Part shown: positions 21,605-52,556 of the stretch, piece by piece
Position numbering within the stretch: position 1 is the first letter of the stretch
Layout: each line of letters begins with the position of its first letter
NCBI GenBank assembly: GCA_018389105.1
Contig: JACATO010001658.1
Span: 62,001-126,000 of the forward strand
DNA length: 64,000 nucleotides
From: Nautilus pompilius
Taxonomy: Eukaryota > Mollusca > Cephalopoda > Nautilida > Nautilidae
Direction of reading: 5' to 3'
Position numbers and translations under genes: made by a program
The notes under the pieces: model-generated
Told to the model about the DNA's origin: nothing
What the model saw: only the letters and a program-made list of their open reading frames with translations
The model's database searches: none

Positions 21605-22760
21605 CAGTCTGCCCAGCCCACGTGTATATTCCGTGCATAATGTAACTAACGTCTTTCATAATTGTATATTCCGTGTATAATGTAACGTAACGTCTGACGT
21701 GATTTATATTATGTGTATACTAACTAACGTCTGCCGATTGTATATCCCGTGTATAATGTAACGTAACGTCTGACATGATTTATATTATGCGTATACTAAC
21801 TAACGTCTGACGATTGTATATTCCGTGTATAATGTACTAACGTCTGACGTGATTTATATTATGCGTATACTAACTAACATCTGACGATTGTATATTCCGT
21901 GTATAATGTACTAACGTCTGACATGATTTATATTCCGTGTATAATGTAACGTAACGTCTGACATGATTTATATTGTGTATACTAACTAACGTCTGACGAT
22001 TGTATATTCCGTGTATAATGTACTAACGTCTGACATGATTTATATCCCGTGTATAATGTAACGTAACGTCTGACATGATTTATATCCCGTGTATAATGTA
22101 ACGTAACGTCTGACATGATTTATATTCCGTGTATAATGTACTAACGTCTGACATGATTTATATCCGTGTATAATGTAACGTAACGTCTGACATGATTTAT
22201 ATTCCGTGTATAATGTAACGTAACGTCTGACATGATTTATATCCGTGTATAATGTAACGTAACGTCTGACATGATTTATATTCCGTGTATAATGTACTAA
22301 CGTCTGACATGATTTATATCCCGTGTATAATGTAACGTAACGTCTGACATGATTTATATTCCGTGTATAATGTAACGTAACGTCTGACATGATTTATATC
22401 CCGTGTATAATGTACTAACGTCTGACATGATTTATATCCCGTGTATAATGTAACGTAACGTCTGACATGATTTATATTCCGTGTATAATGTACTAACGTC
22501 TGACATGATTTATATCCCGTGTATAATGTAACGTAACGTCTGACATGATTTATATTCCGTGTATAATGTAACGTAACGTCTGACATGATTTATATCCCGT
22601 GTATAATGTAACGTAACGTCTGACATGATTTATATCCCGTGTATAATGTAACGTAACGTCTGACATGATTTATATTCCGTGTATAATGTAACGTAACGTC
22701 TGACGTGATTTATATTCCGTGTATAATGTACTGACGTCTGACATGATTCTGTGTATAATG
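21605..22760. repeat. Satellite array of about 36-41-bp units
   Basis: About 30 tandem units built on GTGTATAATGTAACGTAACG + TCTGACATGATTTATATTCC. A shorter form replaces TAACGTAACG by TACTAACG, and a third, more divergent form (GTATACTAACTAACGTCTGA) is confined to the first 400 bp. Long and short forms are interspersed downstream, implying a higher-order structure. The array ends about 550 bp before the retinochrome TATA box. Minus-strand open frames reading YTGYKSCQTL are artefacts of the repeat. Confidence 0.95.
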
Positions 22761-23381: not shown

Positions 23382-26300
23382 ATGACGACTGACACACTAG
23401 CAACAGGGCTGGCTTTCACCCAGACCGAGCACACGGTCACGGGCATACTCTATATAGTTTTAGGTGAGTACAATTTTGGAAATATGACTCTCTTCGTTTC
23501 TATTCGTACCATTATCGTAACCACAGAACTCGTCACAGTAAGCGTTTTATTTGATATTTGGAAAGACAAAATCATATAGATACAGAAATACAGAAAGAGA
23601 GAGAGAGATACGGTGTATAATTCTGCGATTACTCCGCACTTTTGAAGATTTGGTTTTATTATGTAACCATAAATTATCATCAGCATTTTGCGGACGGCCG
23701 GGGGTGTGGTGTGGCTCGGAGCCATACCAGGCCGACGAGAACGATTGAAGTGGTTTCTCGTTGCTTTCCTTAACAAATGCGAGTGCGCGACAAAGGCCCT
23801 ATTAAAACTCTACCTTTTGGATATGGGATAAAACCCAAAAACCCGTAAACGAAAAGGGAAAAAAAAAAAAAAAAAACACGTGCACACCACCGGTTGTGAG
23901 TAAACCGCCACTACGCCAAACCGAGTCGTTTTGACTGGGATTCGAACTCGGGGCCCTTCAACCATAGCAGGTTGCCATTAGACTGCCGCATGGCTTAACG
24001 TCGCTTTGACTCTTGAGATGTCACGAATTTTTAATAATCGGAGGCAATTTTTTTTTTTTTTTAAAGTTAATAACAGAACGCTATTGGTGACGTGGTATTT
24101 GCTGGAGGTAGAGGGTTAATCCGGAGTCGTGTCTCCCCCCCCCCAACGCCTGACCAGTGGTAACCGAACTAGCTGCTGAACGTACGTTTCAACGACCTTT
24201 TCCCGTGACCGTTATCAGAGTTTGCTCCTGTCTCTGAGAAGCGGTGATGTCGGCTTGCAGGAAGGGTTGTTGTTGTTGTTATTTTTAAAAAAAAATATTT
24301 TAATTTTTGGTTTTACGAGTGGCCGGGTGCGGGTTTGAACCTGCGGCCCCCCCCCTTTGGTCGGAGTTTTCCTAAACAAGGGTTTTGGCAAACGCTTTAG
24401 CCGACTCTAAGGGAGTTAAGTTTTACCCTAATTTTTTTGTTGTTGTTGTCTTTTTTGTTGCTGAAAGGTAAGAAGGGTGCAGTTCGATAATCTACCAAGA
24501 CGTTCACGCGCGTATTTCTAGCGGCTATGAAAAAGTATTTATATTAGATCGATTTCCAATCACCCCTCGACGTCTAGCAACTGGCGAAGCATAAACTTCA
24601 TGGATCGCTCCTTCAAAGCTCCCTCGCTTACAGTAGCGATGTAGTAGATCAGAGGATCAGAACCCATTCCTAGTCGCCGTGTCAAAAGCCTGATCTTCTA
24701 GCAGATCTTACCTATTTAAACCACCCAGTTTCATTCAACATCTTTTTGTTACCATTTAGGGATGTATCTCCGCAGCCTTCCCCGTCTGTGCCAACGCTCT
24801 AGAATTGGAACGACGCTGGCATAGCGCTGACATTCACACCTTCGTAGAACTTGGCTTTATACAAACTATATAAGATGTATATTAAAGGCAAAAGAAAAGA
24901 AAAAAAGGGTCGAGAATAGATCCTACAGATACAAAGTTTTTCTCAACAGAAGAAATTCCTGCATATCGCTGCAGAAGTTGTTTCGCCTTAAATGACAATG
25001 TAAACAAGTCAGGTGATTTTCCTTCTCTTTTCATTAATCTAAGGAAGAAATTGTTAAAAATTGTTTAAAATATCTTTTATTTGATAGAACGCTTCCAGTT
25101 TATTTAATTTAGCAAGAAAACTATGCCAGCAATCAGTCACTAATAATCCGAAAATTTTTGATATTGTAATTAAATTCAACATTTCGCATCACGCTGCGCA
25201 GAGATACAGGAAGTGGAGACCTTTCAATAAAATTTGTTTTTACTGACTTGTGAAAGTAGAAAAAATAATATACACTTCCAGAAGTTTCTATCTTAAATGT
25301 CAGACATAAGTAAACAACAACATCAAATAATAAAAATTAAATCCCTGACTGCACAAGGAAAGCGAACAAACTAAACATTATGAACTAAAATGGAAAAAAA
25401 AAAATTAAAACTTTCGGTTTTACTTTAAAAAAAATTTTTTAGTTTGGAATATTTTTGTCATTTTAAATGTCCATAATATTTTTTTTTTAAAATATCTACA
25501 GCTCACGTGACTTATTCGTGTTAGCACGACTGACGTCATCGGTTAATGCTCTAAATACTGCTTCCAAGCGAGGCTCGAAAGGTCATGGGGTCACTAAAAT
25601 TTTATAGAAAGGCTGATGGCTATAGTTGGTTATGCGTTTCACCAAAACTGAAGGATGAAACACATTTTAGGGTAAAGAAATGTTTTCTTATTATATTTTT
25701 AAAGCCAACAGCGGTTAAAACAAGTAACAGAAATTCCTTTTGTGTGTGTGTGTTAGTTGCAATCTTCAGCGCCATAGAAATTCACTACCTTATCTCTTAT
25801 TATTTGCTTACGTTTTTTGCATTTTTGCATTCGTTAACTATATATACTTTAAATGCGTTATCAATTTTCGACATTACAAACAATAAAAGTCATTCTAACA
25901 AATGTTCTGCTGAATTCAGTAGGCATTTACAATTTATGCTTTAAAGCTGTAAACCAGTAGGTGAAGTCTTCGGTTATGCACTTAGGAACCGGTTGATGGG
26001 AAATACTGAATGGCGGCCCAACGATCATCAGCACTGCCCGTCGATATCGTGTCCTCCAAACGTCCGGGGGTGTAATACAATTAACAGACTCCTGCGGAGT
26101 TCGGACCTGCTGGACCTCATTGTAGCACGAAAAACTACGATGGCTAACTTGGAGCGCCGCTATCCATTCTCATCCAACATATGGAATATCAAGGTTCGAA
26201 TGTTTGAGACGGTGCATGTTCTCTGACGGATCAAGAGTGTCCCGGGCCTTGTGTTTCTGAGAGGCCTACCTCGGTAAATAGTGGTCCTTCTACGTCTTCC

Positions 26301-29300: not shown

Positions 29301-32300
29301 TTGTTTTGTTGTTGTTGTGTTGTTATACAGGAAAGCCCCATTTGTATACATTTATGTTAAACGGATGCTATCGGTTTTTTGTAGGAATTCTGGGAATAAT
29401 CGGCAATGGGACCCTGGCGGTCATGTTGGCGCGGACTAAAGACTACACAAGCATCGAAATACCAACTTCACATTCAATTTGCCATTGCAAATATTCTGGT
29501 CGTAGCCGGCTTTCCGTTCACTGGATCCTCGAGTATAGCGGGAAGGTGAGAGTGTCCATGATCTCGTAGCACACGAGGATCATCTTAGTAAAATTTCTAG
29601 TTAAATTAGATCTTGTAGTTTTTTTCCTTCTTTTTAAATGGCAAGCTGCAATTTTTTTTTGGCAACGTTATTTCTTCCGCAGCGGTGACTGTCACAGAGA
29701 CTTAGTTATATAACCTAATATGAAATGGCATTTCTATTTATTACCTTTGAAAGTATCTGGTTGTGGTTACGGAAGGTAAGGGAGCCTAGAAGCATCGTCT
29801 GTCAGAGGTGTCTTTCCCGTTGGTTCACTTCCACACACACACACACACGCACGAGAAATAGCGGCACAGTTCCTTTTTATAGTCACGTGATCCGACAGCA
29901 GGAGAAAGCGGAGAAGAGGCTTCAGCTCGCAAACGCGAGAGATCTCGGATAAGTTTCGTTTTTTTGCTTTCAAGTCTGTCGCGTGGTCCAGACCGGCCTC
30001 AATACAGAGCCGCCCATGTTTTCCTATTTTCAGGTGGTTGTTTGGCAGCGTCGGGTGCCAGGCGTATTCTTTCGAAGGCATGCTGGCCGGCATAGCTTCC
30101 ATCGGCTTCGTGATAGCCGTCTGCATCGAGCGATACGTGGCCACTTGCTGTAAAGAGACATGTAGGTATATCGACCTAGTTCCCTCTCCCCCCTCTCTCT
30201 CTCCGCCACAGCCGCGGTACGTTGCACGGAATGAATAAATGGAACAAAAGAATTTCCAAATGGATAAACTTCTCCTAAATATGGAAGATTTACTCTTCCG
30301 GTTTGACGTTGTGTGCCACCCCCCCCCAACTTTGACAGGGTTCTCCCACCCACACCGGCCATGTGAGTTTCATCCGGGCATTTTTGGCTTTCTCCCATAT
30401 CTTAAAAAAGTACAAGATTTGTAGTAGGGAAATTTCGGGGTGGGGGGTGTAATGCCTCACAGTCGCCGTCTCTGGAAGGACCGGGCCTCCAGGAACGTGA
30501 TGCTGGGTCAGTCAGCGCCCCATCATCGTCACGACGGCCGGAAACCGCAGAGAAGTTACGCGCAGTCGCAGTAAAACAGGAAATGAAAGCGAAATCCTGT
30601 TCAAGATTCTCATTAACTCAACTGCTAAAGAATTAAAAAAAAAAAATTTTTTTTAGATTCTTATTTCTCACTTTAATTAATAAGAGAAAAAAACTTTTTT
30701 TTCCTTCTAAATTTTAATATCTGGAACCAAAAAGCACAAAGAAACAGAAAATATTAATATTTTTCAATAGTAATAATGATGTTTCTACGTATAAAATATA
30801 ATACAGCCAGCATTTTCCTTAGGTGCCCTATTGGTTCCAATTGCCACCTGAGTGCTTATTGGAACTCATCGAATATCTCCAGCTGACATTAGAAGCCAAG
30901 TGACACTGAACACACCTGGCGGATAGCCCTTCTTGATCTTTGGTAGTGAAAGAATGGAAGAGGAAAAACATTATAAACCTATTGAAGTAATTTTACTCTT
31001 GGCTGCTTTGTCAGTAACACGGGAAGAAACTATCCTGTGATGTAGTACATGTGGGTCTATTTAGTCCCTTGCACCTGACACTTTGTAATACTGCGGCGTG
31101 AATTCTTGAAGCTATTGTATTCATTGCCACCCAAGCTGTAATCTGTTCTGCCACATACTGTATAGAACAATGGATACACTTAATTCTTAAAGCTTTTCCT
31201 CATTATGGTAGGACATTTGGATGATTGCAAGCATTCAGCTTATGTAGGCATGGACAAATTGTTTTAGAAACCCCTTTTTTTCAAAAGAACTATTGTTTTC
31301 CAAATAACTGCTGAATGTTTGGGCCATTTTGTTTCCTAGCACTGATTCCAAGATTTTCTCAGGGTGAATAATCACCGATAAGTGGGAAGAGGTGGCTGGT
31401 CTTTGTTGTCTAACTTCCTATTATTAAAATTTGTCAGTGTTTATTTTTTTAAAAAAGTATTTTTCAATTACTCTAAAGATTTTGGAATAATTTTCAAGAT
31501 TAGACAAATGGCAGAAAAATAATTGAAATAAGTGATTATTAGATTTTGAAATGAGCAGTACTGCTTTTAATTACATTATAATATTTGGTTTCAGATCGAA
31601 CTAAGTACCCGAATTCGAGTAATACCATTGTGTTGCTTATTTGGGGAAATGCCTTGTTTTGGGGACTCATGCCATTACTTGGATGGTGTCGGTGAGTGCA
31701 TTTCTTTTGTTCTTCTGACAGTCAAACAGCTAAACAGAAGGTATAAAAGGACACACGACTCTGGCATCACAGAAATAAAATTCATACAAATCACCCAGGT
31801 TAATTTTTTTTAGTTCTGACTTCATGCCCTGACATGCATACTCCACATACTCATAGAATGTATATCTACGATACAGTTTAGCCAATTTATTTCTTATTGT
31901 TGTAATGAAAACATTTTTGAAAGCCTATAGCCATTAACAAAACAAGAATGGCCTAATACAGTTTTCAGTTTCGTTGATGAATCAAAGTCTTGGAGCTGCA
32001 ATATTTGAATATGGAATGATAGCAATGATTTGTATCACATACATAATGTTAGAATCATCAAGCTTTTTAACTTAGCACTACTACATATTTGATTTACCAT
32101 TTTGTGTGTTACATTATGTGACAGTACATCCATGTTTACAGATATAATGGTAGAAAGAGATGAAGACCATCTTTGTTTCTATGGCAAATCAATACTGTAC
32201 TGACAGGTGGACAGATAAGATTGTTGCTCATCTTTCAGATTGCTATTATAATGAAATCTGGATGAATCTATCTTCTAAAATAAGTAAACACTGAACATTT

Positions 32301-35300
32301 AAAAGAAAAGCGAATATAAAGAGCTGTTGTTAATGAATTTATTTTGGCCAGATGCTATGGCAGCTGCAGTAATGAGTACCAGATTTAACATATGGGTAAG
32401 TTTCTTTGTAGTCTTTCAAAATGCTCCTAGCTTTCACCATTTGATGATACATGCTGAATAGTCTTTGACCTGAAATTCATGACATCCTTGACCCTCAGAT
32501 TACTTACCATTGATGATACATGCTGAATATTGCCTTTGATCCTTGACTCCCAGATGATTACCATTGATACATGCTGAATATTACCTTTAACCTGAAGTTC
32601 ATGACATCCTTGACCTCCAGATGACGTTTTAAAGTCCATTGTTACTAAAAAAGATACCCTGAACTATAAAAGATGTTAGCATATAAATAATCTCATCATT
32701 AAAAGAAAATGGCTGCTGAAGTTCTTTTCTATTATTTCAGTCAACCAAGAAATCAAGCAAAGTTTACCTTTGCTGTTAGCAACCAAAAAACAGCATCATA
32801 TTCATCCTTGCAGTTATGATGGGAAACATGCAAGCACATTAGGTGGTGTTGGAAGACACAAAATGTTCCTGCACATGTTAAGATTTCTGATTTCATTGTT
32901 TCTGTAATGGTTTTAACAAATGCTAGCAGGCTGTAACCAGGTTCTACTGGACTGGATACATTTCTTGGTGCATGAAGGGAATTCTTATTTCTGTGCAATG
33001 CTGTATTAGTAGTAAATGTCTTGCTATAAAATTTGAAAGTATTCATTACATCTTTTTTTTTTTTTTTTGTAGAGGCACCAAAATTAACATATCTCCAGAT
33101 TATTAAACCCTCTCAAAGATTTCAGTTACAATTGCAAATCTTCTATATACAGTATATTAATTTTTTCCTAAATATTTCTAATGATTTTTAGGTTTGCAAG
33201 AAACTTAGTAAATTTAAAAATACAGTCTTGGAAAAAAAATGAAATGATGGCAGCACAGAGCTGTTACATTCAAGGAAAAATCCATTTACATTATACTTCT
33301 GGAAAACAGAGAGAAAGGTATAACATGAAATATAATTTTTAACACTTTTTTTTACAGTTATGGGTTGGAGCCAACTGGTGTGTCATGCACAATCAATTAC
33401 CAGATAGTGGACCAACAATACAAGTCTTTCATCCTTGCACTCTTTTGTTGCTGTTTTGCTATATTATGGCCAATTGCCCTGATATGCTTGATGAAAGCTT
33501 ATAGCGCTCTTGCCAGGACACCTGCATCAGAAAGAGACAGAGAGAAGGAGGCTTTCACCGAAGAACAGATCACAGCAGTAAGTAGCAGACAATCTTTTTA
33601 AATGTTTGCCACCAAGGGAAATGGCCTTGGACTAATCTTTCACTTGTAATTTAGAAAAAAAAAACAAAAAAATTTTTTAACATTATTACACTAGAGAAAT
33701 TCAAATGAAAACTGGGGGCTGGATGCCATTATGGCAATGTTTCTTTTGAATGTCCCCAGTTATAGAAAATATTTTTTAGAACTATAAAAAATAAGCATTA
33801 CATTTATCTCTACTGGTTTGGCCAGTTACAACATTTTATTACATCTAACTCTACTGGGCTGGCCAGTTGCAACATTTTATTACATCTAACTCTACTGGGC
33901 TGGCCAGTTGCAACATTTTATTACATCTAACTCTACTGGGCTGGCCAGTTGCAACAATTTATTACATCTAACTCTACTGGGCTGGTCAGTTACAAGTTTT
34001 TCAAAGTCTATTAATGTTGGAAATGATTGTTGAATGATTTGGATATTTGTCTTGGGACAGCTTATTATTGTATTCTTTTCACTATAAATTCTCAATCTAC
34101 TCTCCCAAATTCACAGTAGGATGTAGGATTCTTTCGATTTTATTAAAATTTTTTTTTTCAAAAGGCATTTTCAGGCTAATAAACAGGTGTGTGTGTGTGT
34201 GAGGTGGGGATGTCAATAGAAGTTAAAACAAAAATACATACTCATGAAATCCAAATCCTGATATTTTTAGCTACCCATTTTGTAAAATGTTTGTGCGGGC
34301 AAAAATATTTAGTGATGATGGAGTTTATCAAGTTTAATTATGTCCAAATGGTTAGACTGCTATGACTAAGGGCCAGAGTTTGGGGGATCAGCTAGGTTTG
34401 GCATCCCTCCTTGGTATGGTTTCTTCTCACTCTTCATGAGATGACCTTGCTGGTCCCCTCTCCAAAACCCAGTAGGGATTTTCTGGCTACTTGTGGCAGG
34501 GGTAACTCTGGACTGGCTTGCATTTTGACCAACACTAGAGAGCCCCCCACCCAGGCAACTCACTTAGTCAACCCGATGAGTTGAGGCCATTGTGGCTATG
34601 AATGGCGCTGTTTCAGTCAGCCATCAGTAAACTGAATGCACATCATGTGTAGTCCAGTGGTTTCAAAGACATCCAGAGATTGCTTTAGTCGCACACAGTT
34701 TGTCATCATGATAACCTCATCAAGTGAGTGACCTTGAGAAAATAGCAGCAGCTGCTCTCTTGATTTAACTCTTCTCTCTTCATACACTATCCAAAACTGA
34801 CATCATGATGCAGGTGCTCATGCTATAGTTATTTGTTGGACCACCATCAACAAACTTGGCTGTGGAACAAACAAGAATTTTTAATAGCAGTAGGTCTAAT
34901 TTACATATAAAAGTTCTTTTTAACCCTTATGATGCTGAAAGCAGATATGTCTGCTTTGACATTTATAGCCATTTGATGCTAGATTTACCTTCTATTGGGA
35001 TAAGTGGAATACCCTCACATCTATGAAAGCCCAGCAGCAATTTTCTGACCAAATTCCTAATTCCATTTTTTGGTGGATAATTGAAACATTCCAAGCTCAA
35101 AATTTAATTAAGTACCAAAAGGGTTAAAGTTGAAACTTGCATCATGGTAACAATAAGGGCACACTGGGGGTGCAAATGTTGTCCAGTGTGCTTATGATGG
35201 AAAGGTTTTTCTTAGCCAAAATCTCACCACTGGTGATCGTTCAGGGTGTTTGTTTGCTTGAATGACCAATTTCTCTTTAATTCTGTTAATGAGTCCCATG

Positions 35301-37652
35301 ATCACACTACAAAATGGCACCAAAGTCCACACAAGGCCAGCATCATCACAGACTTTATCGGAATCAATGTTGTCCTTACGAAGTAGCTAAGTCTACCCAC
35401 AAACCTGTTGCATATTCAACACTTGTGAAGGATACAAATTCAAAGAGGAAATACCCTACTTGCCCTTTTTTCCACAGATGATCGATGATCAGGGCATGCC
35501 CTGGCATGGCAGACAATGCTGGATAGTTGTCAAGAGACTTAGTGTCGTCATTCATTTCCGAGGGAGCCACATGCCACCCTGACTTCATGAAAATCTTACA
35601 ATTTTTGACAGTAAAGAACACCATACAAAAACTGTGATGCTATGAAGTTACCAAACATGTTGAAATTCAATTGCCTTTTTTAAATCTTTTTTTAGTTAAT
35701 AATGAAATGTTCCTCTCTCATAAAAAAGGTCATGAAATGGCCCTCAAAGTCCTGGGTGGGACTGGGCTGTTTGGCGAACCTTACTGAAATGGTTTCTTCC
35801 CTGCCTGGCTACAGAAGTTTCTCCCTGCACCTGAAAGCTGGATGTGGTATTTTAGCAAGGGGACGCAATTTGGCAAATGAGTTAAGCTAACTCACCGCAC
35901 CAGCCACTGCAAACTGCTGTGCGGCTGAAAATAATCTGGGAATGGCCTCCTTTTTATTTCACGACTCACTTGTTAGAATTTAATTTATAACATCACATTT
36001 TCTAAAACTGTATCTGCCATGCTTCACATAATTAGTACTTATGAATTAGTTTCATTTTGGGTAATTAATATATGTGTAAAGTGAAAGTTTACATGCAGAT
36101 AGGTGTAGTAGTAGATATATAGGCTAATGTGACTGAAACTGTCGTGTATTCTCTAAATTTGGCACAAAAGGGAGCATATAATTTGTTTTGATACCTTGAA
36201 TCTGATGCCAATGGTGAAACGCTTTTCTACTGTTATCATCTTAAATTTCATATTTTTTTTTTTAAACTATACACATAAATTAAAATATACTTGTAAACTT
36301 ACTAAATATATTTAGGTAAAATTTTTATGGTGATGTATACAGATCATACTAAATTTTCTCTATATCATAAATCAGCGTTACAAACAAAGTGGCAGATGCT
36401 TATAGAGCAAAAAAGAAGTAAATGCCAAACGCTGTCAGGGGAAGTGTCAAAATATTCCTTCCAGGCTGTTATTCCTCAACTTCCTGCACAAATTGCGCGC
36501 AGCACAAAATTAAAACCTGTAAAGGCCAGCAGATTATAAGATTTTTTTTTTTTTTTTATAAAAGACAGAATGTTTTTTTGTTAGTTCAGAGCTTCAGACA
36601 GAGGATTATCTGGACTAAGAGTTTGTGCTTTGTGCCTCTTAACTTCTTCAGCGTAAAAATATCTTGTCATCTTCCCCACAACTTTCTGATTGCTTTGAGT
36701 TTTGCTGTTCCTATTTTACATTACCATAAACCCATCTTACGCTGTAGTAATCTGGAATATTTTCATGTTTAAAGAGGTCTGCTCAGAACAATTAAAGCAG
36801 AAACGTTTTCTTTCCACATATGGGACTCTTTGAGAGATTGCCCGACAAAATCAAAGGTTACATTTACTTTTACTCCAGGGATTACCGATAAAATCTCTAG
36901 AATACTCAATAAATGCAACGTTGTGATGCTTTCCTTTCTTTGAAGGCCCAAACTTTGAGGTCTTTATTCATATAAGTAAAAACAAAAAACAACAACAGAT
37001 ACAAAATGTATACCTAGTATTTATCCTAATCCGTGTAATTGTGAACAAGTCTACATCAACGCCTCAAACCGAAGCGTAAACAAACACAACTTGTTATGTA
37101 TCTTTTTTCCCTTCCTTTTGTTCACTCAGGTACATTTATAAACCTTTTATTTTTGTAAAAAATATCTTTTCTGGTATTATTCTATTTTTTTTTTCTCTTA
37201 TAAAGCCGAATACAAAAGTCAGCAAAATCTGTATTTCCCCTAATGTGTGTTATACTGGGAATATCTTGTCAGTCTCAACATGGAGGACAAGCCATACAAT
37301 ACAATACGTATGGCAGTTGCAAATAATAATAAATAAAAAAAAGGGCTTACACAATGGCATTTGTACCATGAGATTTCTAAAACCAGCACAGACTACACAC
37401 GTTTCTTCTCTCCACTTTTTTTCCCCTTTTCAGATGTCATTTACATCCCTGATGCTGTCTGTAATTGGCTGGACCCCATTTGCATTCATCTGTCTGTACT
37501 CCTTGCTCTATGATTCGACACAGATCTCACATCTGGGAGCCACGCTGCCACCCCTCCTTGCCAAGGGCTCCACCGTCTTACACCCTCTGCTCTACTTGGT
37601 GGCGGGATCTCGACTTCAGGGTTCGTTCAGCTCTCGCAGGAAGTCGCAGTGA
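23382..37652 (+). CDS. Retinochrome-like opsin (retinal photoisomerase)
   Basis: Six exons: 23382-23463, 29385-29545, 30034-30161, 31595-31691, 33358-33577, 37434-37652, all GT-AG with matching phases, about 301 codons, the length of squid retinochrome. Seven-helix opsin. Diagnostic features: SSSIAGRWLFGSVGCQ before helix 3, ERY at its end, GLEPTGVSCTINY in loop 2 with the counterion glutamate six residues before the disulphide cysteine (bovine position 181), tyrosine at position 113, and the retinal-binding lysine in LLAKGST of helix 7. HPLLY replaces NPxxY, as expected for a photoisomerase rather than a strong G-protein signaller. Retinochrome binds all-trans retinal and photoconverts it to 11-cis in inner photoreceptor membranes. 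Odd: exon 2 carries one extra A near 29,438-29,440 that shifts the frame from ARTK to the continuation SKYQLHIQFAIANILVV; without it the length equals the squid protein. RGR/peropsin is the alternative family, less likely. Confidence 0.88.
23885..24005 (-). repeat. tRNA-like SINE remnant
   Basis: On the minus strand GAGTTCGAATCCCAG matches the RNA polymerase III B box (GGTTCGAATCC type), and tRNA-arm-like text (GCCATGCGGCAGTCTAATGG) lies upstream. An A tract lies at the other side on the plus strand (23,860-23,877). It sits in retinochrome intron 1. It does not fold as a complete tRNA by eye. Confidence 0.35.
24290..24420 (-). repeat. tRNA-like SINE remnant
   Basis: On the minus strand GGTTCAAACCC is a perfect B box, preceded by GAGTCGGCTAAAGCG in an A-box-like position and interrupted by a G9 run. 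An A/T-rich tail follows. In retinochrome intron 1. Confidence 0.4.
24430..25980. other. Retinochrome intron 1, unassigned part
   Basis: AT-rich sequence with homopolymer runs. An open frame near 25,585-25,944 has no ATG-supported family similarity. No RNA gene or regulatory site can be supported. Confidence 0.5.
25985..26765 (+). mobile_element. Tc1/mariner-type transposon fossil
   Basis: The C-terminal transposase block is clear on the plus strand at about 26,530-26,640: LLPAQSLDLNPTEHQWDKLE, then RHVRHHDPLPTPLRTQQRT, corresponding to the family's 'WPAQSPDLNPIEHLWDxL' motif, with the last catalytic acid in the E of TEH. Upstream pieces need other frames. A plus-strand EHDGDFRH block before it fits the region after the second aspartate. 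It lies in retinochrome intron 1, same strand, and is inactive. Confidence 0.75.
26860..28930 (+). mobile_element. Jockey-like LINE fragment (reverse transcriptase to 3' end)
   Basis: Plus-strand pieces give, in the expected order: RPVGLSTxxxKM-type motif (VDRSVCQPLLEKM), SKSRLLSKNTNQSINRLKTR for the 'QAGFRxNRST' block, KSHKAAC...LFLVLIDHLIAELP for 'VPQGxVLSPTLF', HQNG*PPSTSPSL for the 'TxKWxxxINxSKT' block, KIVRKPQVGGG, STLNYGIAAWATAKTNLYK, an RNase H remnant (HRDIRGNETADYLVKDGSKE near 28,408-28,470), and a terminal zinc-knuckle-like CRTGKETADRARVLQKHPPL at about 28,730-28,790. Reverse transcriptase plus RNase H plus the C-terminal cysteine block identifies a jockey/I-group non-LTR element. 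It is 5'-truncated and carries many stops and frame changes. No poly(A) or target duplication was defined. Confidence 0.8.
30600..31594. other. Retinochrome intron 3, start of the CpG-poor domain
   Basis: AT-rich intron sequence with no element recognised. CpG dinucleotides, dense up to about 30,570, become rare from here on to the right edge of the window except in short islands. Confidence 0.7.
32440..32625. repeat. Short tandem repeat, about 3 imperfect copies
   Basis: The words TTGATGATACATGCTGAATA, CTTTGACCTGAAATTCATGA and CATCCTTGACCCTCAGAT recur about three times over 185 bp, with one copy partly deleted. In retinochrome intron 4. Confidence 0.75.
33796..33999. repeat. 41-bp minisatellite, 5 copies
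   Basis: Unit ATTACATCTAACTCTACTGG + GCTGGCCAGTTGCAACATTTT repeats exactly every 41 bp from 33,796; the central three copies are near-identical and the outer two are diverged. In retinochrome intron 5. Confidence 0.95.
34920..35127. mobile_element. piggyBac-like MITE
   Basis: A 208-bp segment bounded by TTAA on both sides with ends CCCTTATGATGC and GTACCAAAAGGG. A TTAA target duplication plus terminal CCCTT/AAGGG is the mark of piggyBac-type non-autonomous elements. No coding capacity. Compare the element at 44,480-44,726. In retinochrome intron 5. Confidence 0.65.
36870..37065 (-). repeat. Dispersed repeat, copy B (unclassified)
   Basis: Partner of the segment at 7,620-7,805: shares CCGATAAAATCTCTAGAATA, GATGCTTTCCTTTCTTTGAA and AATCCGTGTAATTGTGAACA in the same order. 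On the minus strand it continues into readable text (ISQRVPYVERKRFCFNC) that could be a zinc-knuckle start, so the parent may be a retroelement; this is too short to classify. Confidence 0.6.
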
Positions 37653-37828
37653 CGAGTCTACGACCGACAGAACTCAGGTGAAACTTGTTTGCGTGTTCTT
37701 CATATTTTTAGATGTAAATTTACTGAAAACAAAACTCCCCCCTTCCTCCCCAAATGGTAATTTTGTTTTGTTAGTTTTTTTTCCCAACCATTAGCAAAGA
37801 TTTTTTTAAAAACTGTATTTCACCATAA

Positions 37829-37834
37829 AATAAA
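37829..37834 (+). terminator. Polyadenylation signal of the retinochrome gene
   Basis: AATAAA lies 177 bp after the retinochrome stop codon. It is the first canonical hexamer downstream. The convergent GAR1 gene ends about 540 bp further right. Confidence 0.5.
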
Positions 37835-38374
37835 GAACGGATGGATATATCCGTGCATGTGTATATAACCAAGTTCCATTATAAAAGTGTTGTCATTTCC
37901 AACATAAAGGTATTGCTTGACAGTCACTATGCTGGATCAACAAATGCACCCAAAATACCTGTAGCCAGAGACAGAAAAGGTTAATTCCAAGCAGCACCTT
38001 TCATGATTTATAGCTTCCCATAGACATCGTTTTATCTTGTTGGCAGCTCAGGGTCAAGGCGGGATTTCAGATGCTGCTGGGCAGAATAAGGGAGTGTGGT
38101 GGCAAAGGGAAGTGAGGAAGTGAAGGCCAGCACCAGCTGTAGCCACGCTAACGAAAGATTCCACTGGAACTCTGAGTAGGGAATACCCCCAACTCCAAAC
38201 GCAAGCTCTTGAAACGGTGGGGATCCCAACTCCCAAGCCAGCATCTTGGAACACCATTGAATTTAAAACGCAAGGAAGCTTTACAAATAATTTCCAATGA
38301 CAAAACAACAAATCAAATGCTTATTGTTTACTTTAAGATTAATAAAGACAATACATTTATGGACTTGGCGACCA

Positions 38375-41300
38375 CTACCTTTGTCTAAAGCCGCCTCCTC
38401 TGCCACCTCGACCTCTACGGAAGCCGCCACCTCTGCCTCCTGCCTCCTCCTCTTCCTCCTCTGCCACCTCTGCCTCTGAAAGGACCACCACGACCTCTAT
38501 TGTTCCCAGCTAGAGAGAAAGGGGGGAACAAACAAAACAAACCACTGCTTTTAAAAAATTCTTATTAACACACACACAACTCTACATCGATAAAATGGGA
38601 AGATTCTAGCTTCTAACGATAGGGGCACTACTCACTTCCTTTTCCGCTGCTCTGTCCTCCACGTTTTCCTAGGAACTTTTCCAAGGGAAGTAACTTCATT
38701 GGATCAATGAAAAACTACAAGTTATAAAATTTTAAAAAAAATAAATAAATAACATTCAAGTTTAAAAAGGTATTAAAAAGGTATAAAAACAATTTGTTTA
38801 GATGCACAAACATTAATGGAAGCACCACTGAATTTTTTTTTTTCTGGCAAAGTGAGTAAAGATTAAATTCAAGCCAGAACAATCGTGATGCCCGGAATGC
38901 TGACGTAGATCAGCTTTCCAAACAACACCAGATACTATCATCATTTGGTGTCGAACAACGGCTAGAGCTGCTTGCTACGCTCCACGCCCTGGTCATGCAG
39001 GGGCTGACAAATTAAACAGAACCCACGAAGGAGAACTTAGCAAAAATAAAAGCCAGCCTCACTGAATTTAAGAAGTTGTCATCCATTTTCTGATTCAACC
39101 ATTGCAGAAATAGGTAGATGGTGTTTGATTAGCTTTGCTGCTCTTGTTACCAGGTGTACGCCAGAAAGCCTACACAAAGACCCCCCAGGGACTGGCACAT
39201 TGAGTTGGCAGAATAGCGCGGTCGCTTTAGGATTAACATGTAAGGTTTAACTGGTACTGTCTAAACCAAAAAGCATACCTTTGTCACTTTATCAAAAGAT
39301 TTTGCTTTCATATTGTCTGACAGCTTCACTGAAAAAAACTAAAAAGAAACAAGTTAAGGAAAAAAAAAAAAGGAACTGATTAACCAAATAAATAGCAACA
39401 TTAAAATAAAATTATCTAACATCCCCATCTTTTATTCATTAACTCTTAATCTTGCTACAAACTGATGATGACAGGAAAGAGAACATGAGAACAACAAAAA
39501 AAAAAACTCTTACACTTTTTTCTTTTCCATTCAAAAAATGAACATTTTCTGTCTCAAAGAAAATCCTTCCCGTCAAAGTAAATACTAGCTGCCAAATGCG
39601 CATGAACATAGACCTAGGATTTAACCGACTAATCCAGGCAATCAAAGGATACATGATCTCGGATTGGTCCAAAAATTTCATCCACTTTCCCGATTTGTTG
39701 TTTATTTTCTAAGTACACAGGTGCATTGAAATAGGGGATTTTTTCATTGGTGCATTTGCATACCAAGTCCTCTTCACAAGGGTGACTGAAAATTCCAAGT
39801 TCTGCAACAGAAGAAATAAAAATAAAAAAAGAGGGGGGGGGTGACTGTAATTCTGCAGATGTGACCGAGGATTTTTAGGGGAAGTTTTGAGAAGTGGTTA
39901 AAACAAAAAAACAGCTCATCAAACAAAATGATTATTAACAGAAAATGCACCTACTGAGCTGATTACGTGCAACATTTGGAAATGACGACGACAACACTTG
40001 TATTGGAGGAAGTCCTTCAGATGGAGACTAGAGTTGCAGATGCTGGTAGTACTCTGGAGAATGCATGCAGACTGTTTGTTGTCACGGCGATTTCAGCATT
40101 ACACAGTGCTGTCAGTGAGAGTCAGTCCACTCCACTGAGCCAAAGATGAACAACCCAGTGAAAGAACTTCCTTTTTTAAGACAATTGTCTTCCAAATAAG
40201 AAAAAAAAAAAATATACCAGGCAAACCACTTCCTGGATAACAGAGCAGAGACAAAGCAAAACCAACCGACGAGCCACTCACTGACCAGTATATCCCGTTT
40301 CTCCACAGTGACACACAAGCTCGTCACCAGATAATCCAATGACGGTGCAGGAATCTTAACCATCAGCCTGTCACCAACAAACAGGTGGTGACCCTGCCAC
40401 AAGTTGTGGAGAGGAATCATTCCTCGTAAAAAAAAAAAAATAAATAAAATATTCTCAGATGAAAAAGAAGAAAGATTAGCTTCCTTCTGAGCTCATACCA
40501 ACTGATCCATCTATTTCCACCCAATACGTCCATTGGGTTTGCAAAGTAACGAAAGGTCGTCCCAGGTTTCCGTGCCTGAGGAGAGAAGCTTGTACCAGAA
40601 ATGACAGAGGCAAGAATGTTGTTTAAGATTTAACCTCAGACTGGTAGAGTTCTGTCCAAACAATGCCACTCTTTCATTTCTTGCAGCAACTTACACTGGT
40701 GCAGCCTCCTCCAAACAACAGCATACTTACAAGAAAATTTAAATCTAAAGATTTTTCACTCACCAGAAAAGTGACCCACCAGCAGAGAAAAGTCAAACGA
40801 AACATGCAAACATTATGGTAATCTGCAATAAAACCGCTGGCCTCTGACAGTAAAGATCAACCATGATCGAATTACACATAACAAAAATAGGAGACAACTA
40901 CTATTAATTGGGTGTCTGCACATGTGAGAGAAGTAATGAGTGATTCAGTTATTTCCCATTTACAAGTCACATGAGATGTTTTTCCTTGAGGTAGAATTGA
41001 GAAAAAGACTAAACAAAAAATCAAATTATTATTCTTCAAATAAGCATATTTAAAAGTGAATTCTTTGGGTAGTTTGAACAAGAGAGTGCTGTGCTTTGAA
41101 AATTCTGCCAATCTTCAATATATTAGCATAACTAATGAGATACACCATAATATTTAAGTGCCAGGTAATTTAGATGGAGTTTTTTCAACAGCTAGAGGAG
41201 AAAGGGTGGCATACTATAGAATCAGAAAAGCCAATGGAACCTACCAGAATGTGATTACAGAAAATTACAATAAACAAAAAAAAAAACAAAACATTTAAGA

Positions 41301-44173
41301 TAGATCTAATAAAAACTTTAGCAGCAGTAGTTACCCTGGAACTCCAATTATACATTGTGTACCTAGTTTTGTAAGACCATGTACAAACACACAAAACACC
41401 TACCTGTAACTGTTTCAGGAGGACCATAATCAAAACCCCTTTGTCCACCACCTCGTCCTCCTTTCAAAAAATAAATTAATGATCTGTATCAAATGTGGTA
41501 GGATTTCTAGCATCATCTTTCCTTAGGTATTGAGTAGTTACAACATCAATAATGTATGCAGTATTTAAACAACACATCTTCATTTAAATACAAAAATCAT
41601 CAGGATGCCGACATCTAAGAATTGCATACTTTCTGATTAGTATTTTATGTCCATGCTAAAGGATTACAATTAACTGTCTACTGTTGTTTTATTAGGGATA
41701 CAGTCATCAACAATTTTTTTTACCAGCAAACAAGACTCTTCTTAAATTACATAGAACTCCATTTAATAAGGTAAATATGTAGAAAAATAATAAAACAATT
41801 ACCTGAGATGGTTAAAAAGCTTGCTTATTGAGGACTACAGGATGAGGAGGCGGAAGAGTTATTCAGATGAAGAGACAGATATGTCTCTTCACCCACGGTT
41901 AAAACTGAGTCATTTTCCTTCCTCTCCAAGAACACATCAAGAGTCTGCTAAACTGCTGCCTTCTTTTTCTGCCAGTAAAGTTCTTTGTAGCATTCAAAAT
42001 TACCAATTAAAAGCCTATACACTATAGAGCTGCATTCTGAGTCCAGATTCTTATTGGTGAAGATAGCCGTGGCCTTGTCTATGAACTGGAAGGTCTCAAA
42101 CAACAATTTTGTAGTTAACATTTGGTAGGGGGTGGAGCATCTTCTTCATTCTTCACCTCTTCCTCAGTTCATTCTTGATCCAACAATATTAAATCCTCAT
42201 TAGACAATGGATGTACGGGGGACTCAAGCAACTCTATTAGTCAAAGAGCTAGCCTGGCCCCCCCCCCCACAATGTTACATCAAAGCTCTCCCACACTCCT
42301 CAAAATTCATTGACACATTCAGGATAGACATGGTGCTGAGCACCATTCATTCTGACTGTTGATACTTTCCCTCACAAATCCCTGATGTTACCATTGGCAT
42401 TCATGATATTGTAGTCATGCCAAAAATCTTTCAGGTATGGCTTGGCTTGTCTTTGTTGTCTAATGCTTGGATGAGTTGTCTGAATGTACAACATAAATAA
42501 TACGCCTTAAAGGTGGCCATGACCTTCTGATCCATCAACAGTAGCAAAGGAGTGGTGTTTGGTAGCAAAAAAACTACTTGAACATGTTCAAATAAAATGC
42601 CAAGATTCAGTGTATAATCTTGGCATTATCCAGTGCAAGCACTTCCTTATGAGATATTTTTGGCACAATATTCCTTTACTGCGGGGCAAAAGTGTAAGGC
42701 AAACCATTCATTGAAGATAGCCTCAGCTACCCAAACTCTCTTATTGGAGTGCCAAACAATAGAGAGACATGGTTTGGAATAACCCTTCAAAGCCCTGTGG
42801 TTCTCAGAGTGATACACAAGCAATGAGTTTAGCTCACAATTCCCTATTCTGTGTTATCACCAAGCAGAAGGGTTAGATGTTCTTTTGAAACTTTAAAGCC
42901 AAGTACAAACTTTTTCATCTTTGGAAAGGTATGTCCTGTTGGGCATATGCTTCCAGTAGAGCCCAGTCTCATCCACACTGGACACCTAGTTCAGGTGTGA
43001 AGCCACCTTCTTTAACTATTCCTTTCAAAATAGGTGGATAATGTTCAGTAGTGCTTCCTTGACAGCACTCACTCTCTTTTGCTATGCAGTTTCAGGTTAT
43101 GATAATAGTGACACTTTTTGAACTTGTCAAACCATCCATGGCTAGCTGCAAAAGGTTCTAAAACTGAGCCTTCACCCGAATTATCCCTAAGCTTAGATTT
43201 GAATTGCGACGTCTTATTTCATTCATCCACATCAATAACAGTCTTTCCATCTTTTCCACAGTGTCACCACAGTGCCTGGTAATATAAAATGTGTCTTGTG
43301 GTGTAATACTTTCAGCACCTTTCTGAATCTTTTCAACATTTTCTTGAAATGATCTAGGCCTGGGGTGTTTAGCCAATATCCACAACCTGTTCCTCTTTTT
43401 TCAAAGTGCCTTAATACATCCATCTTGACATCTAAGCTAACACTTTTTCTTTACCTCCTCTTTGAGCAGGAGCTACTACTATCTGCTGAATGTTTAAAAC
43501 TCATTTTGCTAGGGGGTTTAACATCATTTAACACTGAAATCCCCATCTCAGTCAAGATGTGTTGCTTGCTTCTAACTGGTGCTGCATCATTTATTTACAA
43601 AAAGCCAGGTACTTGTTGATAGAGTGCAAAGTTTAGAAGTAGCACATTTTTACAATGTGAAGTATGCGAAATATTTTTCTTAATTTACTATTTTTCATTG
43701 TTTTTTTTTGTCAACAATGTAAAAGCGGAACAATGAAAAGCAAGGAGAACTTGTAGTTTTACATAAACGACATTTTAATGTTTTAATAAGATCATTTAAT
43801 TAACATTTAAGTCAAAAGGGTGTCAAAAACAAAACAAAAAAGATACAAACTGTTATTGAATACAGGCTTTCTGCAAATTATGCTTTAAAAAAGTTGCAAA
43901 TTTAAAAGGATGCTTACTTCTAAAGCCTTCTCTGCCTCGTCGGAAGCTCCCACCTCCTCCTCCTCCTCCTCTGAAGCTGCTCCCACCACCTCCTCTTCCT
44001 CGGTAGCTGCTCCCACCACCTCTTCCTTCTCGGAAGCTGTTCCCACCACCACCTCTTTCTCGGAAGCTGCTCCCACCACTTCTTTCTCGGAAGCTGCTCC
44101 CTCCACCTCCTCCTCTGCCTCTTTGGAAGTTTCCATTCCTCCAGGAATCATTCCAACCACCTATTTTAGACAT
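38375..44173 (-). CDS. GAR1: GAR1, H/ACA ribonucleoprotein subunit 1
   Basis: Six minus-strand exons: 44173-43918, 41460-41404, 39801-39653, 39338-39279, 38714-38636, 38509-38415, all GT-AG with consistent phases, giving 231 codons as read (human about 217). The N-terminal glycine-arginine-rich region ([19 protein letters not shown], then FRxRGGG repeats) leads into the conserved core: [94 protein letters not shown], then a C-terminal RGG tail. GAR1 binds dyskerin in H/ACA snoRNPs that pseudouridylate rRNA and snRNA, and in telomerase RNP, in the nucleolus and Cajal bodies. Odd: at 38,441 an apparent extra base ends the tail as RRQRWRLP at 38,415; one base less would continue [11 protein letters not shown] to a stop at 38,375. 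The start at 44,173 was chosen as the first ATG in frame, matching the family's MS start. Confidence 0.9.
40099..40575 (-). CDS. Possible exons nested in GAR1 intron 2 (unrecognised)
   Basis: Three blocks on the GAR1 strand fit splice rules. 40575-40499: acceptor TTCTCTCCTCAG, reads [20 protein letters not shown] + IDGSV, donor GTATGAG, phase 1. 40422-40286: joins as [20 protein letters not shown] then [20 protein letters not shown] + EKRDIL, donor GTCAGT (GTGAGT four bases on is the alternative). 40134-40099: acceptor GGCTCAG, reads [11 protein letters not shown] and stops. Their phase cannot join GAR1 exon 2, so they would belong to another transcript. CpGs are more frequent here than around it. 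Caution: another frame of the middle block reads [15 protein letters not shown]-like but interrupted, so the frame choice is uncertain. No family recognised. Confidence 0.28.
41820..43600 (-). mobile_element. Tigger-like (pogo superfamily) DNA transposon fossil
   Basis: In GAR1 intron 1, same strand. Readable transposase pieces in order: [18 protein letters not shown] and [15 protein letters not shown] (N-terminal helix-turn-helix), [45 protein letters not shown] with the first catalytic aspartate, DGSEGHGHL and [11 protein letters not shown], and the C-terminal [15 protein letters not shown]. The 'LALDNAPG' block holding the second aspartate is recognisable but altered (LHWIMPR). Stops are present, for example in the KRR-RKSVS region near 43,460, and several frame changes are needed, so it is inactive. 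Terminal repeats were not resolved. The order and motifs match Tigger/jerky-type DDE transposases. Confidence 0.85.
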
Positions 44174-44479
44174 ACATAGCAAATGCTGGCATTTCAGAAA
44201 TTTGTATAAAAATATTAAAGAAAACCTACTTCTAATAAAATATATGGTGATTATCAGTTTTTTTCATCTTTTAGCCCCTTTATTAAAAAAAAAGGTTTAA
44301 AGTAAATGGATATATTCACTTATAATTTGACTTTTTCACCCTACATGTAGATGTCTCCTTGAGAAAAACAGGTTTTTAATATTAATAAATACAAAATAAT
44401 CATCAAGATATAAGGAGAAAAAAAAACAACAAAAGATAACTGTATATGTTCAGTATTTTAGTTAATTGAACATTTCAAA

Positions 44480-44726
44480 TTAACCCTTTGAACCCTAGTG
44501 GCCGGTTCACTGGCTTCTATTTAAACTTCCAAATACCCTGGCGGCTGATTTATTGGCCCGCCATGTGGTTTTCTTTACCAATCAATAATATGGTAATTCT
44601 CAACCAAACAGCGACCATGTTACATCTGAGTTTTGATCTGCAATACTGGCGAAAGTTGTAGCACGAAATTTTCAAAATTTTTTTGGGGATCTTGACATCC
44701 AGGAAGCTCAGTGCTCAAAGGGTTAA
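44480..44726. mobile_element. piggyBac-like MITE with perfect TTAA duplication
   Basis: TTAA at both ends (44,480-44,483 and 44,723-44,726) encloses CCCTTTGAACCCTAGTGG at the left and CAGTGCTCAAAGGG at the right, a clean inverted repeat CCCTTTGA/TCAAAGGG. It is 247 bp with no coding capacity. Ends and target site match piggyBac-type non-autonomous elements. It lies about 300 bp upstream of the GAR1 ATG. Confidence 0.8.
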
Positions 44727-44779
44727 TAGAACACATGATAAGGTTTGAAACTAAATCTTAATAGAGAGTAACAATTAGA

Positions 44780-45330
44780 AAGTCATACAATTGTTTCCTG
44801 TTTTTTTAAAAAAAAAAAAATTGCTTTTATTATTTCAGTAATGGTTAACATTGAATCTGTTTGTTCTTTTTTTATCTTGGTTGTTTCGACAGAGTTATAT
44901 GGGTTAGTTTCAGTAAAATAATAAAGACCACCATCAAAAACAGATTGGCAGCCACAACGATGTATGTAAAGTCTCTGTGTGGGATAGAAAAACAAAAATG
45001 GAACGTGCATTGAAAACACTTAATCTCAACTTTAAAACACTAGCCAAGACAAAATATCGAATTAAAACAATAAAACAGACATAGAGAACCACCCCACTCC
45101 ACAGTTAAAGGAACAGATTCAAATGATTGTTTCTCCATAATAATGCATAATGCCTAACACAACATGCAAATAATGTGCTGCTATACGCTTCAAAAATTTA
45201 CCAGTGCACAGTGTTATTGTAGTGACGTTACAAAAATGGTGAAATGCTTCACTAGTGTGTTCAGAGTTATTCAAGCTGGAAAGTGAAACATATATTCAAA
45301 CACACAGTGACATAAAGAATTCTTTAGTGA
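44780..45330. other. GAR1 upstream region
   Basis: No coding exon recognised. GAR1 transcription should start between 44,173 and the element-rich DNA to the right, but no TATA box, Inr or CpG island could be assigned. Confidence 0.4.
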
Positions 45331-45337
45331 GCCTCAC

Positions 45338-46215
45338 ATGAGAGGAGTAATCCTGTTAGTAAATATGTATTTCGATTTGCCAAGTTGTTTGGGTAGAAAA
45401 AGATCTATTTGTACTGAAGAAACTGTGGAAGCTGGTGCCAAATTATTGTGTGTGTGGCCCCAGCCAGTCTATTGGGAATGCTTTGACAGAACTGGCATTG
45501 ACTCTATCACACCTTTCCAATTTTGCATGACCTGAAAATAAAGCAATTTCATCCCAACACAGCTCCCTTGATGATTACAGCTGTACAGTGGAATTCTGAG
45601 AGATTTTCTGTTCTAAACTTGGTGTTGACCCCACATGCAAAATGTTTTGTGGAGTGGAAATTTATTCAACAAAATAGGCACACAAACAGACATTTACATC
45701 TCTTATGACAATCCTCATGTTGGATATAAGAGACACTAAACTGCCCGGCATTGTGTTTTGAGTTTGAATCTTTTGTAGAAATATTGCCGACCCAATTTTC
45801 CTTCAGGACAACGTCATGGGCGAGTCATACTTGCAGATATTGCAAGGCACCAAGTACTCTGAAATGCAGAACATAGACAATTTATGATTCATGCAAGATG
45901 GGGTACCCAATTACCAACCCATTTTCAACATGTGGTCTGATGATGGCTGGATGAAAAGTTTCCTAAGCAATACTTCGGAAATTCGAATGTCCTCCAAAAT
46001 CTTTTGATTTAGCGCCTCCAAATTTTTTTTCTTGTGAGCACCATGAAAAAAGTAAAAGGTGTATTTAGATAAATCCCATACCATTGCTGAACTAAAAATA
46101 AATAATGGAGGTTATGCATGGAATTAGTCCTAAACTGTGCAAAACGAGTGCTTTGTTCCACAAGTGAATGCCCACATGAGTGCTTGGGCAAAAATGGTAG
46201 ACAAGTTATTAAAAT
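45338..46215 (+). mobile_element. Mariner-type (DDE) transposon fossil
   Basis: Plus-strand pieces of a DDE transposase: EETVEAGAKLLCVW, YISYDNPHVGYKRH, DNVMGESYLQILQGTKYSEM, FMQDGVPNYQ (second catalytic aspartate block), then from about 45,990 PPKSFDLAPPNFFL and KVYLDKSHTIAELK, the family's 'WPPRSPDLTPxDFFLWG...EELK' order, and ECFVPQVNAH. Stops and frame changes are frequent, so it is long dead. It belongs to a different lineage from the copies at 19 and 26 kb, which carry NPIE-type C-terminal motifs. Confidence 0.7.
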
Positions 46216-46499
46216 GTCTTATGCCTCTTTTCTTGATGTGGCAAGTGTCTGGATTTCATGTTGTGACGCAGAATAAATGCAGATTAAAATGATGTAAAAA
46301 CAAACTTCCTATGTCATTTTGTTGCTGAAACACAAGCAGTTTAGTCTGTTCAGTCAAGTATGGAACACCATGTATGCATGTGTGTGTGTGTGTAGCCTCT
46401 ACAAGCTTTATCATCTCGTCTGAGAGACAGACAGACGAAGAGAATAAACACCTTTTGAGCCCATGAAGAGAGTAAATCATCTGCTTTCATAATGAACAA

Positions 46500-46700
46500 A
46501 AAAAAAAACAAGCAAACATTATTAATTTTAGGTGTACGAATTGTATGTTAAGTTGTACGTCTGAGAATTGTTCGACAGCCGTGTTTAATGAAGACAAAAA
46601 CCGATACCAGCCTTTTCCTCCTCCCAAAGAACTCCCTTGATCCCTACTACTGGAGTCCATCGATGTCCTGCTTTAAAAAGAAAAAAAATTAATTGTTGCA
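46500..46700 (-). other. Short CpG-bearing block, possible exon or insertion
   Basis: On the minus strand an ATG at about 46,660 opens MDSSSRDQGSSLGGGKGWYR and continues for some 50 codons. The block has several CpGs in an otherwise CpG-poor region. It could be an upstream first exon or a recent insertion; its phase does not join GAR1 exon 1 cleanly. Unassigned. Confidence 0.2.
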
Positions 46701-47289
46701 AAAAAAAATAAAAAAAATTTTCAAATACATTATAAACAGAATAACCTTATTAGAAATAATTTTAATAGATCACTATATACTTTACCAGGCAGGAATCTAA
46801 GAGCAACAATTTATGATGAAAGTTTCTTTTCAAAATCATGTTGAAATCCATGGAACCTAGGTGAGGATGTCCTTTGAGAAACATCATACCAATGATTAGT
46901 ATTTTTAAAAAAATTTTAAAAATACGCTACTGTTATTTAGGGATGTGCTGATTGTCAAATGGCCAATTAGTAAATTTCATAAAATTTTTGGGGCCTACTC
47001 CTAATGGGAAGCCAGAAATTTATTCCTGTGCACAGAATATCACCACAAGCAATAAAAATAAACAGGTCTAAAGGGCTGGCCATCTTTCTGCACTGGGACA
47101 GATATGCACGAGAAAATATCAAAAATACAAACAACATATCATAGAATTGCATCACGTGTGTAAAATGAAATGCTCATTAGTAGTCATGGGTTGATATAGT
47201 ACAGTGTGATTAGTTATCATGCAACCAATAAAAGTGTGATTATAAAAGTATAGGCAGTGATATCATTGTACAGTGATTAATGTGTGGTG

Positions 47290-47740: not shown

Positions 47741-47759
47741 TAATGCACTGTATGTATTC

Positions 47760-49000: not shown

Positions 49001-49002
49001 TT

Positions 49003-49522: not shown

Positions 49523-49559
49523 TCCGCTCGCTGTTATGAAACATTATTATATCATCATC

Positions 49560-50700: not shown

Positions 50701-50714
50701 ATCGTCAACTAGCA

Positions 50715-52010: not shown

Positions 52011-52019
52011 TAGCTTATT

Positions 52020-52550: not shown

Positions 52551-52556
52551 CATACT

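Follow-up and report, generated by a model that had tools for sequence, protein, structure and literature searches.

In the nautilus Nautilus pompilius, the CpG content of the DNA changes abruptly inside a single gene, within the third intron of an opsin gene. The boundary is well supported, from the sequence, as a mutational imprint belonging to a known kind of system and lying in an unusual place, and it very probably reflects mosaic CpG methylation in the germline. The window that we analysed comprises 64,000 nucleotides (positions 62,001-126,000 of a 909-kb contig, from a genome of 727.6 Mb). Using a change-point scan on the event "C followed by G", with the interval defined as all positions within 3 log units, we located the best change point of the window at 30,590 (interval 30,567-30,669). 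None of 200 block shuffles of the whole window, and none of 500 of the 26-36 kb region, reached the observed likelihood. With a longer part of the contig (256 kb), the interval was 30,561-30,704. The boundary that an earlier note on this DNA had placed at about 30.57 kb is therefore real, with a CpG observed/expected ratio (o/e) falling from 0.95 to 0.30. The hand counts of that note were exact as well (16 CG in 2,101-2,340 and 1 in 58,021-58,500), and the CpG o/e profile across the window, which it had proposed as a check, is not flat.

The CpG-rich domain (1-30,590; o/e 0.95) continues to the left as far as the contig end. To its right lies a CpG-poor domain of o/e 0.30 (30,591-49,790) containing the 3' half of the opsin and GAR1, followed by a CpG-rich island between GAR1 and DDX46 (49,791-50,731; o/e 1.40), probably a promoter region, and by a second CpG-poor domain over DDX46 (50,732-64,000; o/e 0.21). 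The description of CpG as nearly absent right of the boundary thus suits the two poor domains, but neither the island nor the region at 36-40 kb, where o/e reaches 0.42-0.59 per kb. The step at 30,590, sharp in CpG, has no counterpart in GpC, whose o/e is 0.94 to the left and 1.08 to the right of it and 0.94-1.10 over all four segments.

When the contig is followed over its first 256 kb, the CpG-rich side measures 92.6 kb from the edge to the contig end, and the CpG-poor side extends for at least 163 kb past the edge, with less depleted spots at contig positions 112, 144-147, 184-190 and 236-238 kb. A greedy segmentation of the same 256 kb gave six boundaries, missing the island at 49.8-50.7 kb (contig 112 kb). 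The opsin edge was the best supported of the six, with a ln ratio of 923 against 170 for the next, and had the narrowest interval (143 bp vs 205-686 bp for the others). Base composition changes here too: G+C is 0.54 in the 191 bp to the left of the edge and 0.21 in the 191 bp to the right, compared with 0.42 and 0.36 over about 90 kb on each side. This local drop accounts for part of the sharpness of the edge and, since it occurs at the same point, the exact base of the edge is fixed less precisely than the interval would imply.

A run of A12T8 is located 45 bp inside the edge (30,635-30,654) and is the longest of seven A7T7 or longer runs in the 256 kb. We rejected it as an edge element, as it had been chosen post hoc and the four other boundaries checked had no such run within 250 bp, although they do have A or T runs. 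An old SINE-like repeat copy, matching copies elsewhere at 70-77%, is found 0.3 kb inside the edge (30,871-31,029).

The opsin gene comprises six coding exons on the plus strand. Exon 1 (23,382-23,463), carrying the ATG, was picked by eye from five hits to a pattern of our own, and its phase fits exon 2. Exon 2 (29,385-29,545) encodes TM1-2, contains a one-nucleotide frame break and alone gave no Pfam match. Exon 3 (30,034-30,161) encodes TM3 with the ERY motif and matched PF00001 at E 1.8e-5, under the Pfam cut-off. Beyond the edge follow exon 4 (31,595-31,691; TM4), exon 5 (33,358-33,577; TM5, with a PF00001 match at E 4.7e-4, also under the cut-off) and exon 6 (37,434-37,652), which encodes TM6-7 with the lysine region and the stop. 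Exons 3-6 read as one continuous protein that aligned with rhodopsin at E 7.1e-20 over residues 2-209 of 220. The AK of TM7 is conserved in this alignment, and we take its lysine to be the Schiff-base lysine. The gene is putatively a retinochrome, the name given in the earlier note, after its likeness to squid retinochrome. The frame break of exon 2 sits near an A run and may be an assembly or sequencing error or a real lesion. Upstream of exon 1 there is a CpG-rich tandem array of about 29 copies of a 40-bp unit (21,625-22,748).

The two parts of the gene differ in CpG as the earlier note had said, though not exon by exon. Exons 1, 2 and 3 have o/e values of 0.75, 1.06 and 1.11, and pooled CpG per C is 25/92 (0.27) in exons 1-3 vs 14/134 in exons 4-6 (Fisher p = 0.002). 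Exon 5 (o/e 0.19; 0.04 CpG per C) and, in part, exon 6 (0.53) bear out the contrast, but exon 4, which lies 1 kb past the edge, retains four CpGs and an o/e of 0.91. The shift in codon choice within the gene that had also been claimed was clear in one of three measures: NNC among NNC/NNT codons before G fell from 13/19 in exons 1-3 to 3/19 in exons 4-6 (p = 0.0025), but NCG among NCN (9/32 vs 7/50, p = 0.15) and CGN among arginine codons (2/3 vs 4/8, p = 1) did not separate the two sets.

An assembly that joined two unrelated stretches at 30.59 kb would give an abrupt step in both CpG and G+C, as is seen, and the note itself had named misassembly as what would undo its claim. Equal-scoring DEAD-box and repeat matches occur on two other contigs of the assembly (G000:C2019 and G000:C2314), suggesting that some haplotype copies were retained. 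Against a chimera, the search with exons 3-6 listed 12 matches, four of which are these exons themselves, and the top hit among the remaining eight is only 27% identical, so that no second copy was found among the matches listed; a single copy fits a retinochrome, as far as the available portion of PMC10733189 goes. The flanks of the edge are unique except for short old repeats: the 431 bp to the left (30,160-30,590) had one match elsewhere, of 50 bp, and the 1,000 bp to the right (30,591-31,590) had 15 short ones. The reading frame, moreover, crosses the edge with fitting splice phases. We therefore regard a chimeric join as very improbable.

The earlier note attributed the loss of CpG to methylation eroding it to TpG and CpA, and several lines of sequence evidence point to such a history in the germline. 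To the right of the edge TpG and CpA stand at 1.30 and 1.24, vs 0.99 and 0.98 to the left. DEAD-box genes are generally housekeeping genes and opsin-like genes generally tissue-specific, and elsewhere in the genome the poor and rich CpG classes track gene type. In 16 DEAD-box loci chosen from 51 matches, the flanks were below 0.5 in every case (CpG o/e 0-0.47) and the exons ranged over 0.16-0.75, with 14 of the 16 below 0.5 and the other two at 0.64 and 0.75; pooled CpG per C was 0.076 in exons and 0.042 in flanks. In contrast, all eight loci of opsin-like or other rhodopsin-class genes, taken from the non-self matches listed in the search with exons 3-6, had an o/e of 0.73-1.17, with a pooled CpG per C of 0.30. 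Exons for the RFD and catalytic parts of DNMT1 are present on one contig (C649), on the same strand. Random stretches (13 + 20, drawn by contig, hence a small sample in which short contigs are over-represented) gave an o/e below 0.5 in six, of 0.5-0.75 in four and of at least 0.75 in 23 of the 33.

Repeats with copies on both sides of the edge were compared in seven alignments, kept from 102 rows once simple sequence, rows shorter than 60 and overlapping ones had been dropped; two of the seven pairs share one left copy. In the right copies, 39 of the 78 CGs of the left copies appear as TG or CA, compared with 4/18 in the reverse direction. The GC control was lopsided too (15/48 GC to GT or AC from left to right, 4/31 in reverse) because the left is richer in G+C. 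The excess of CG over GC was modest (p = 0.04; kept fraction, p = 0.03), and the repeat test adds little beyond the TpG/CpA excess.

This lopsided control and the difference in G+C on both scales are what could be expected if the edge were one of base composition without methylation, or if the rich side were merely young or repeat-derived DNA, for which a weak match to reverse transcriptase (RVT_1, E 0.008, under the cut-off) at 27.2-27.5 kb may also speak. By our own estimate, the drop in G+C is larger than the loss of CpG could directly cause, which counts against an imprint. Such an origin is nevertheless improbable, given that CpG is abundant in opsin exons 1-3 and in 90 kb of sequence, that GpC shows no step while TpG and CpA are in excess, and that CpG classes follow gene type elsewhere.

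The neighbours of the opsin on the CpG-poor side are GAR1 and DDX46. The coding exons of GAR1 lie on the minus strand (38,375-44,263). Its core exon, in 39,632-39,874, matched H/ACA RNP subunit 1 at E 6.6e-22; the first and last exons were placed by eye, with the stop near 38.4 kb. The opsin, ending at 37,652 on the plus strand, and GAR1 are thus convergent, their coding ends being about 0.7-0.8 kb apart if the end of GAR1 as placed by eye is used. DDX46 is located beyond the island on the plus strand (53,528-64,000) and leaves the window, matching DDX46 at E 1e-28; its DEAD domain (PF00270) is found at 62.2 and 63.8 kb, and its RS part was placed by eye. Two tandem arrays occur beside the island, one of nine copies of a 58-bp unit with 98% matches to its left (49,002-49,522) and one of about 19 copies of a 57-bp unit directly to its right (50,733-51,993). 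The stretch 50,732-52,031 contains no CpG. A scan of 20-52 kb gave no Rfam match at the gathering score, and an ARAGORN scan gave no match.

Farther into the CpG-poor flank, we picked by hand ten of the 298 open reading frames of at least 70 codons, 45 of which were listed, for a Pfam scan. Five of the ten matched (CUB, Sushi, hAT dimerisation, Transposase_1 and Mos1 HTH), and the other five had no Pfam match. The CUB and Sushi exons (L020:9687-9998 and L022:6918-7262) are of a non-housekeeping gene type; together with the transposon-type frames they indicate that the CpG-poor side holds more than housekeeping genes. The hAT-type frame (L023:1224-2300, 359 codons) is located in a less depleted segment (o/e 0.57) and is perhaps younger for that reason. 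Pieces of a Mos1/mariner-type transposase are found at L016:1080-2086.

Within the poor side, depletion is uneven. After masking the opsin exons, two GAR1 exon stretches, the arrays and the SINE-like copies, CpG per C was 0.031 in the deepest trough, just inside the edge (31,692-36,000), 0.086 over the tail-to-tail 3' ends (36,001-40,000) and 0.038 at 40-44 kb. The two troughs, at 31.7-36 and 40-44 kb, differ from the rise between them with p = 3e-5 and 2e-4. Among 40 non-overlapping 4-kb windows of the poor side, on a grid made to start at 31,692, the first, second and third ranked 1st, 36th and 11th from the lowest CpG. Of 88 overlapping windows, 79 had values below that of 36-40 kb and two below that of 31.7-35.7 kb. 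Depletion is weaker over the gap, with an o/e of 0.31-0.64 per 500 bp at 36-40 kb. Erosion in the 3' half of the opsin equals or exceeds that in GAR1; the state would accordingly be old, and nothing recent was seen. A young insertion was considered as the source of the rise and rejected: the non-self matches listed for 35.9-37.4 kb all lie within a single stretch of some 210-240 bp (68-89% identity), and masking this stretch keeps the rise.

We also followed the strand asymmetry of TpG and CpA. It was -0.155 in the coding part of GAR1 (38.3-44.2 kb), about +0.03 at 30.6-36 kb and +0.08 to +0.13 in DDX46. A bias as strong as that of GAR1 should be visible at 30.6-36 kb, though the control is weak: values of +0.07 in the upstream part of GAR1, -0.07 at 36-37.4 kb and -0.13 in the CpG-rich intron 1 make the asymmetry too uneven to decide on germline transcription, and we rejected it as a pointer to this.

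Two origins of the eroded opsin half have to be weighed. The earlier note proposed that the methylated domain of a neighbour had spread into the opsin. The domain of GAR1 would then pass its own 3' end and the gap and stop in intron 3 of the opsin, without germline transcription of the opsin being required. Such spread is tentatively a close rival, the less likely of the two origins on present evidence. The genes are convergent, with the short distance between their coding ends given above, and CpG remains low over the 36-40 kb gap. In the accessible text of PMC3827831, 157 tail-to-tail gene pairs of Ciona more than 500 bp apart lie under one uninterrupted methylated domain. The strand bias leans slightly to minus at 36-37.4 kb, as spread from GAR1 would have it, and all eight of the other opsin-like loci look unmethylated. 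Depletion is, however, deepest at the far end of the supposed domain and slackens between the two genes, the opposite of what a tail fading with distance should show; the window at the edge is the lowest of 40 and the next one towards GAR1 the 36th. The half-gene lacks a GAR1-type bias at 30.6-36 kb, and its erosion is no weaker than that of GAR1. The Ciona pairs, as the same text has it, lack a drop at the 3' ends, and a partial drop is seen here. A convergent pair is thus present, but depletion falls off at the 3' ends and is deeper farther away, and spread from the neighbour is poorly supported.

The alternative, that the 3' half of the opsin was methylated via its own transcription, is favoured because the trough is deepest at the edge, CpG rises between the genes and a GAR1-type strand bias is lacking. 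Taken as a whole statement, methylation scar included, we give this origin an even chance. It has points against it as well. The eight uneroded opsin-like loci imply that an opsin with a methylated body would be out of the ordinary, and, more weakly, the strand bias is not clearly plus at 30.6-36 kb and leans to minus at 36-37.4 kb. The four CpGs retained in exon 4, the nearly all-or-none methylation of Ciona genes and the length of the 5' part that would have stayed unmethylated also speak against it.

If the boundary is a methylation imprint, the DNA to the right of 30.59 kb would long have been methylated in the germline and that to the left would not, as the loss of CpG and the excess of TpG and CpA suggest. 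A wandering edge would leave a ramp; as the step is narrow, the edge presumably stayed put, moving by no more than about 150 bp over the time in which most CpGs inside it decayed. On the favoured origin, methylation would be targeted to the 3' half through a coupling to transcription of the opsin locus, either because the gene is transcribed in the germline over its full length, its protected 5' part then being unusually long (7.2 kb, counted from the ATG), or because transcription begins within intron 3. The methylated opsin body would meet the convergent body of GAR1 at their tails, and erosion would be weaker at the place where the two end. A speculative and rather unlikely extension is that the edge is fixed in cis, perhaps by a germline start site internal to the gene, next to the A12T8 run in intron 3, and stable to about 150 bp.

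In several respects the locus resembles the mosaic methylation of other invertebrates, as presented in the available parts of studies on oyster (PMC4378273), Biomphalaria (PMC8549274) and Ciona (PMC3827831): there are apparently two CpG classes, CpG is depleted in genes of housekeeping type, an island remains where a promoter probably lies, the edges are sharp, and DNMT1 is present. The Biomphalaria excerpt describes large methylated domains alternating with large unmethylated ones. That on Ciona describes sharp methylation edges, lower methylation at gene ends, which the rise at 36-40 kb over both gene ends resembles, and genes that are methylated either nearly throughout or hardly at all. 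Unlike what that excerpt describes, the opsin edge lies in mid-gene, 7.2 kb after the ATG. In one Ciona transgene, by the portion seen, the unmethylated part reached about 1 kb downstream of the start, compared with which the presumably unmethylated 5' part of the opsin, at 7 kb, is long. Convergent neighbours with depletion running over the gap are shared with the Ciona tail-to-tail pairs of the same source; unlike in these pairs, as far as that source goes, one partner here is depleted over only half its length, and the 3' ends are less eroded. In Nematostella, the regain of gene-body methylation accompanies transcription-coupled histone marks, according to the accessible part of PMC13345969. 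Among the literature matches listed, we found none for an opsin or retinochrome edge or an intragenic methylation edge, which is no proof of absence from print.

The opsin edge is a natural case in which to ask what determines the limits of gene-body methylation in animals, with two regimes in one gene and on one strand. Should relatives turn out to have the edge too, a position encoded in the DNA would be probable; should they lack it, an edge that follows transcription would be more likely. The case also shows that the CpG o/e of a whole gene, widely used as a proxy, can be the mean of two halves in opposite states. If the edge is indeed fixed in cis, one sensory gene would be exposed to two mutational regimes, and one protein would evolve under two codon pressures.
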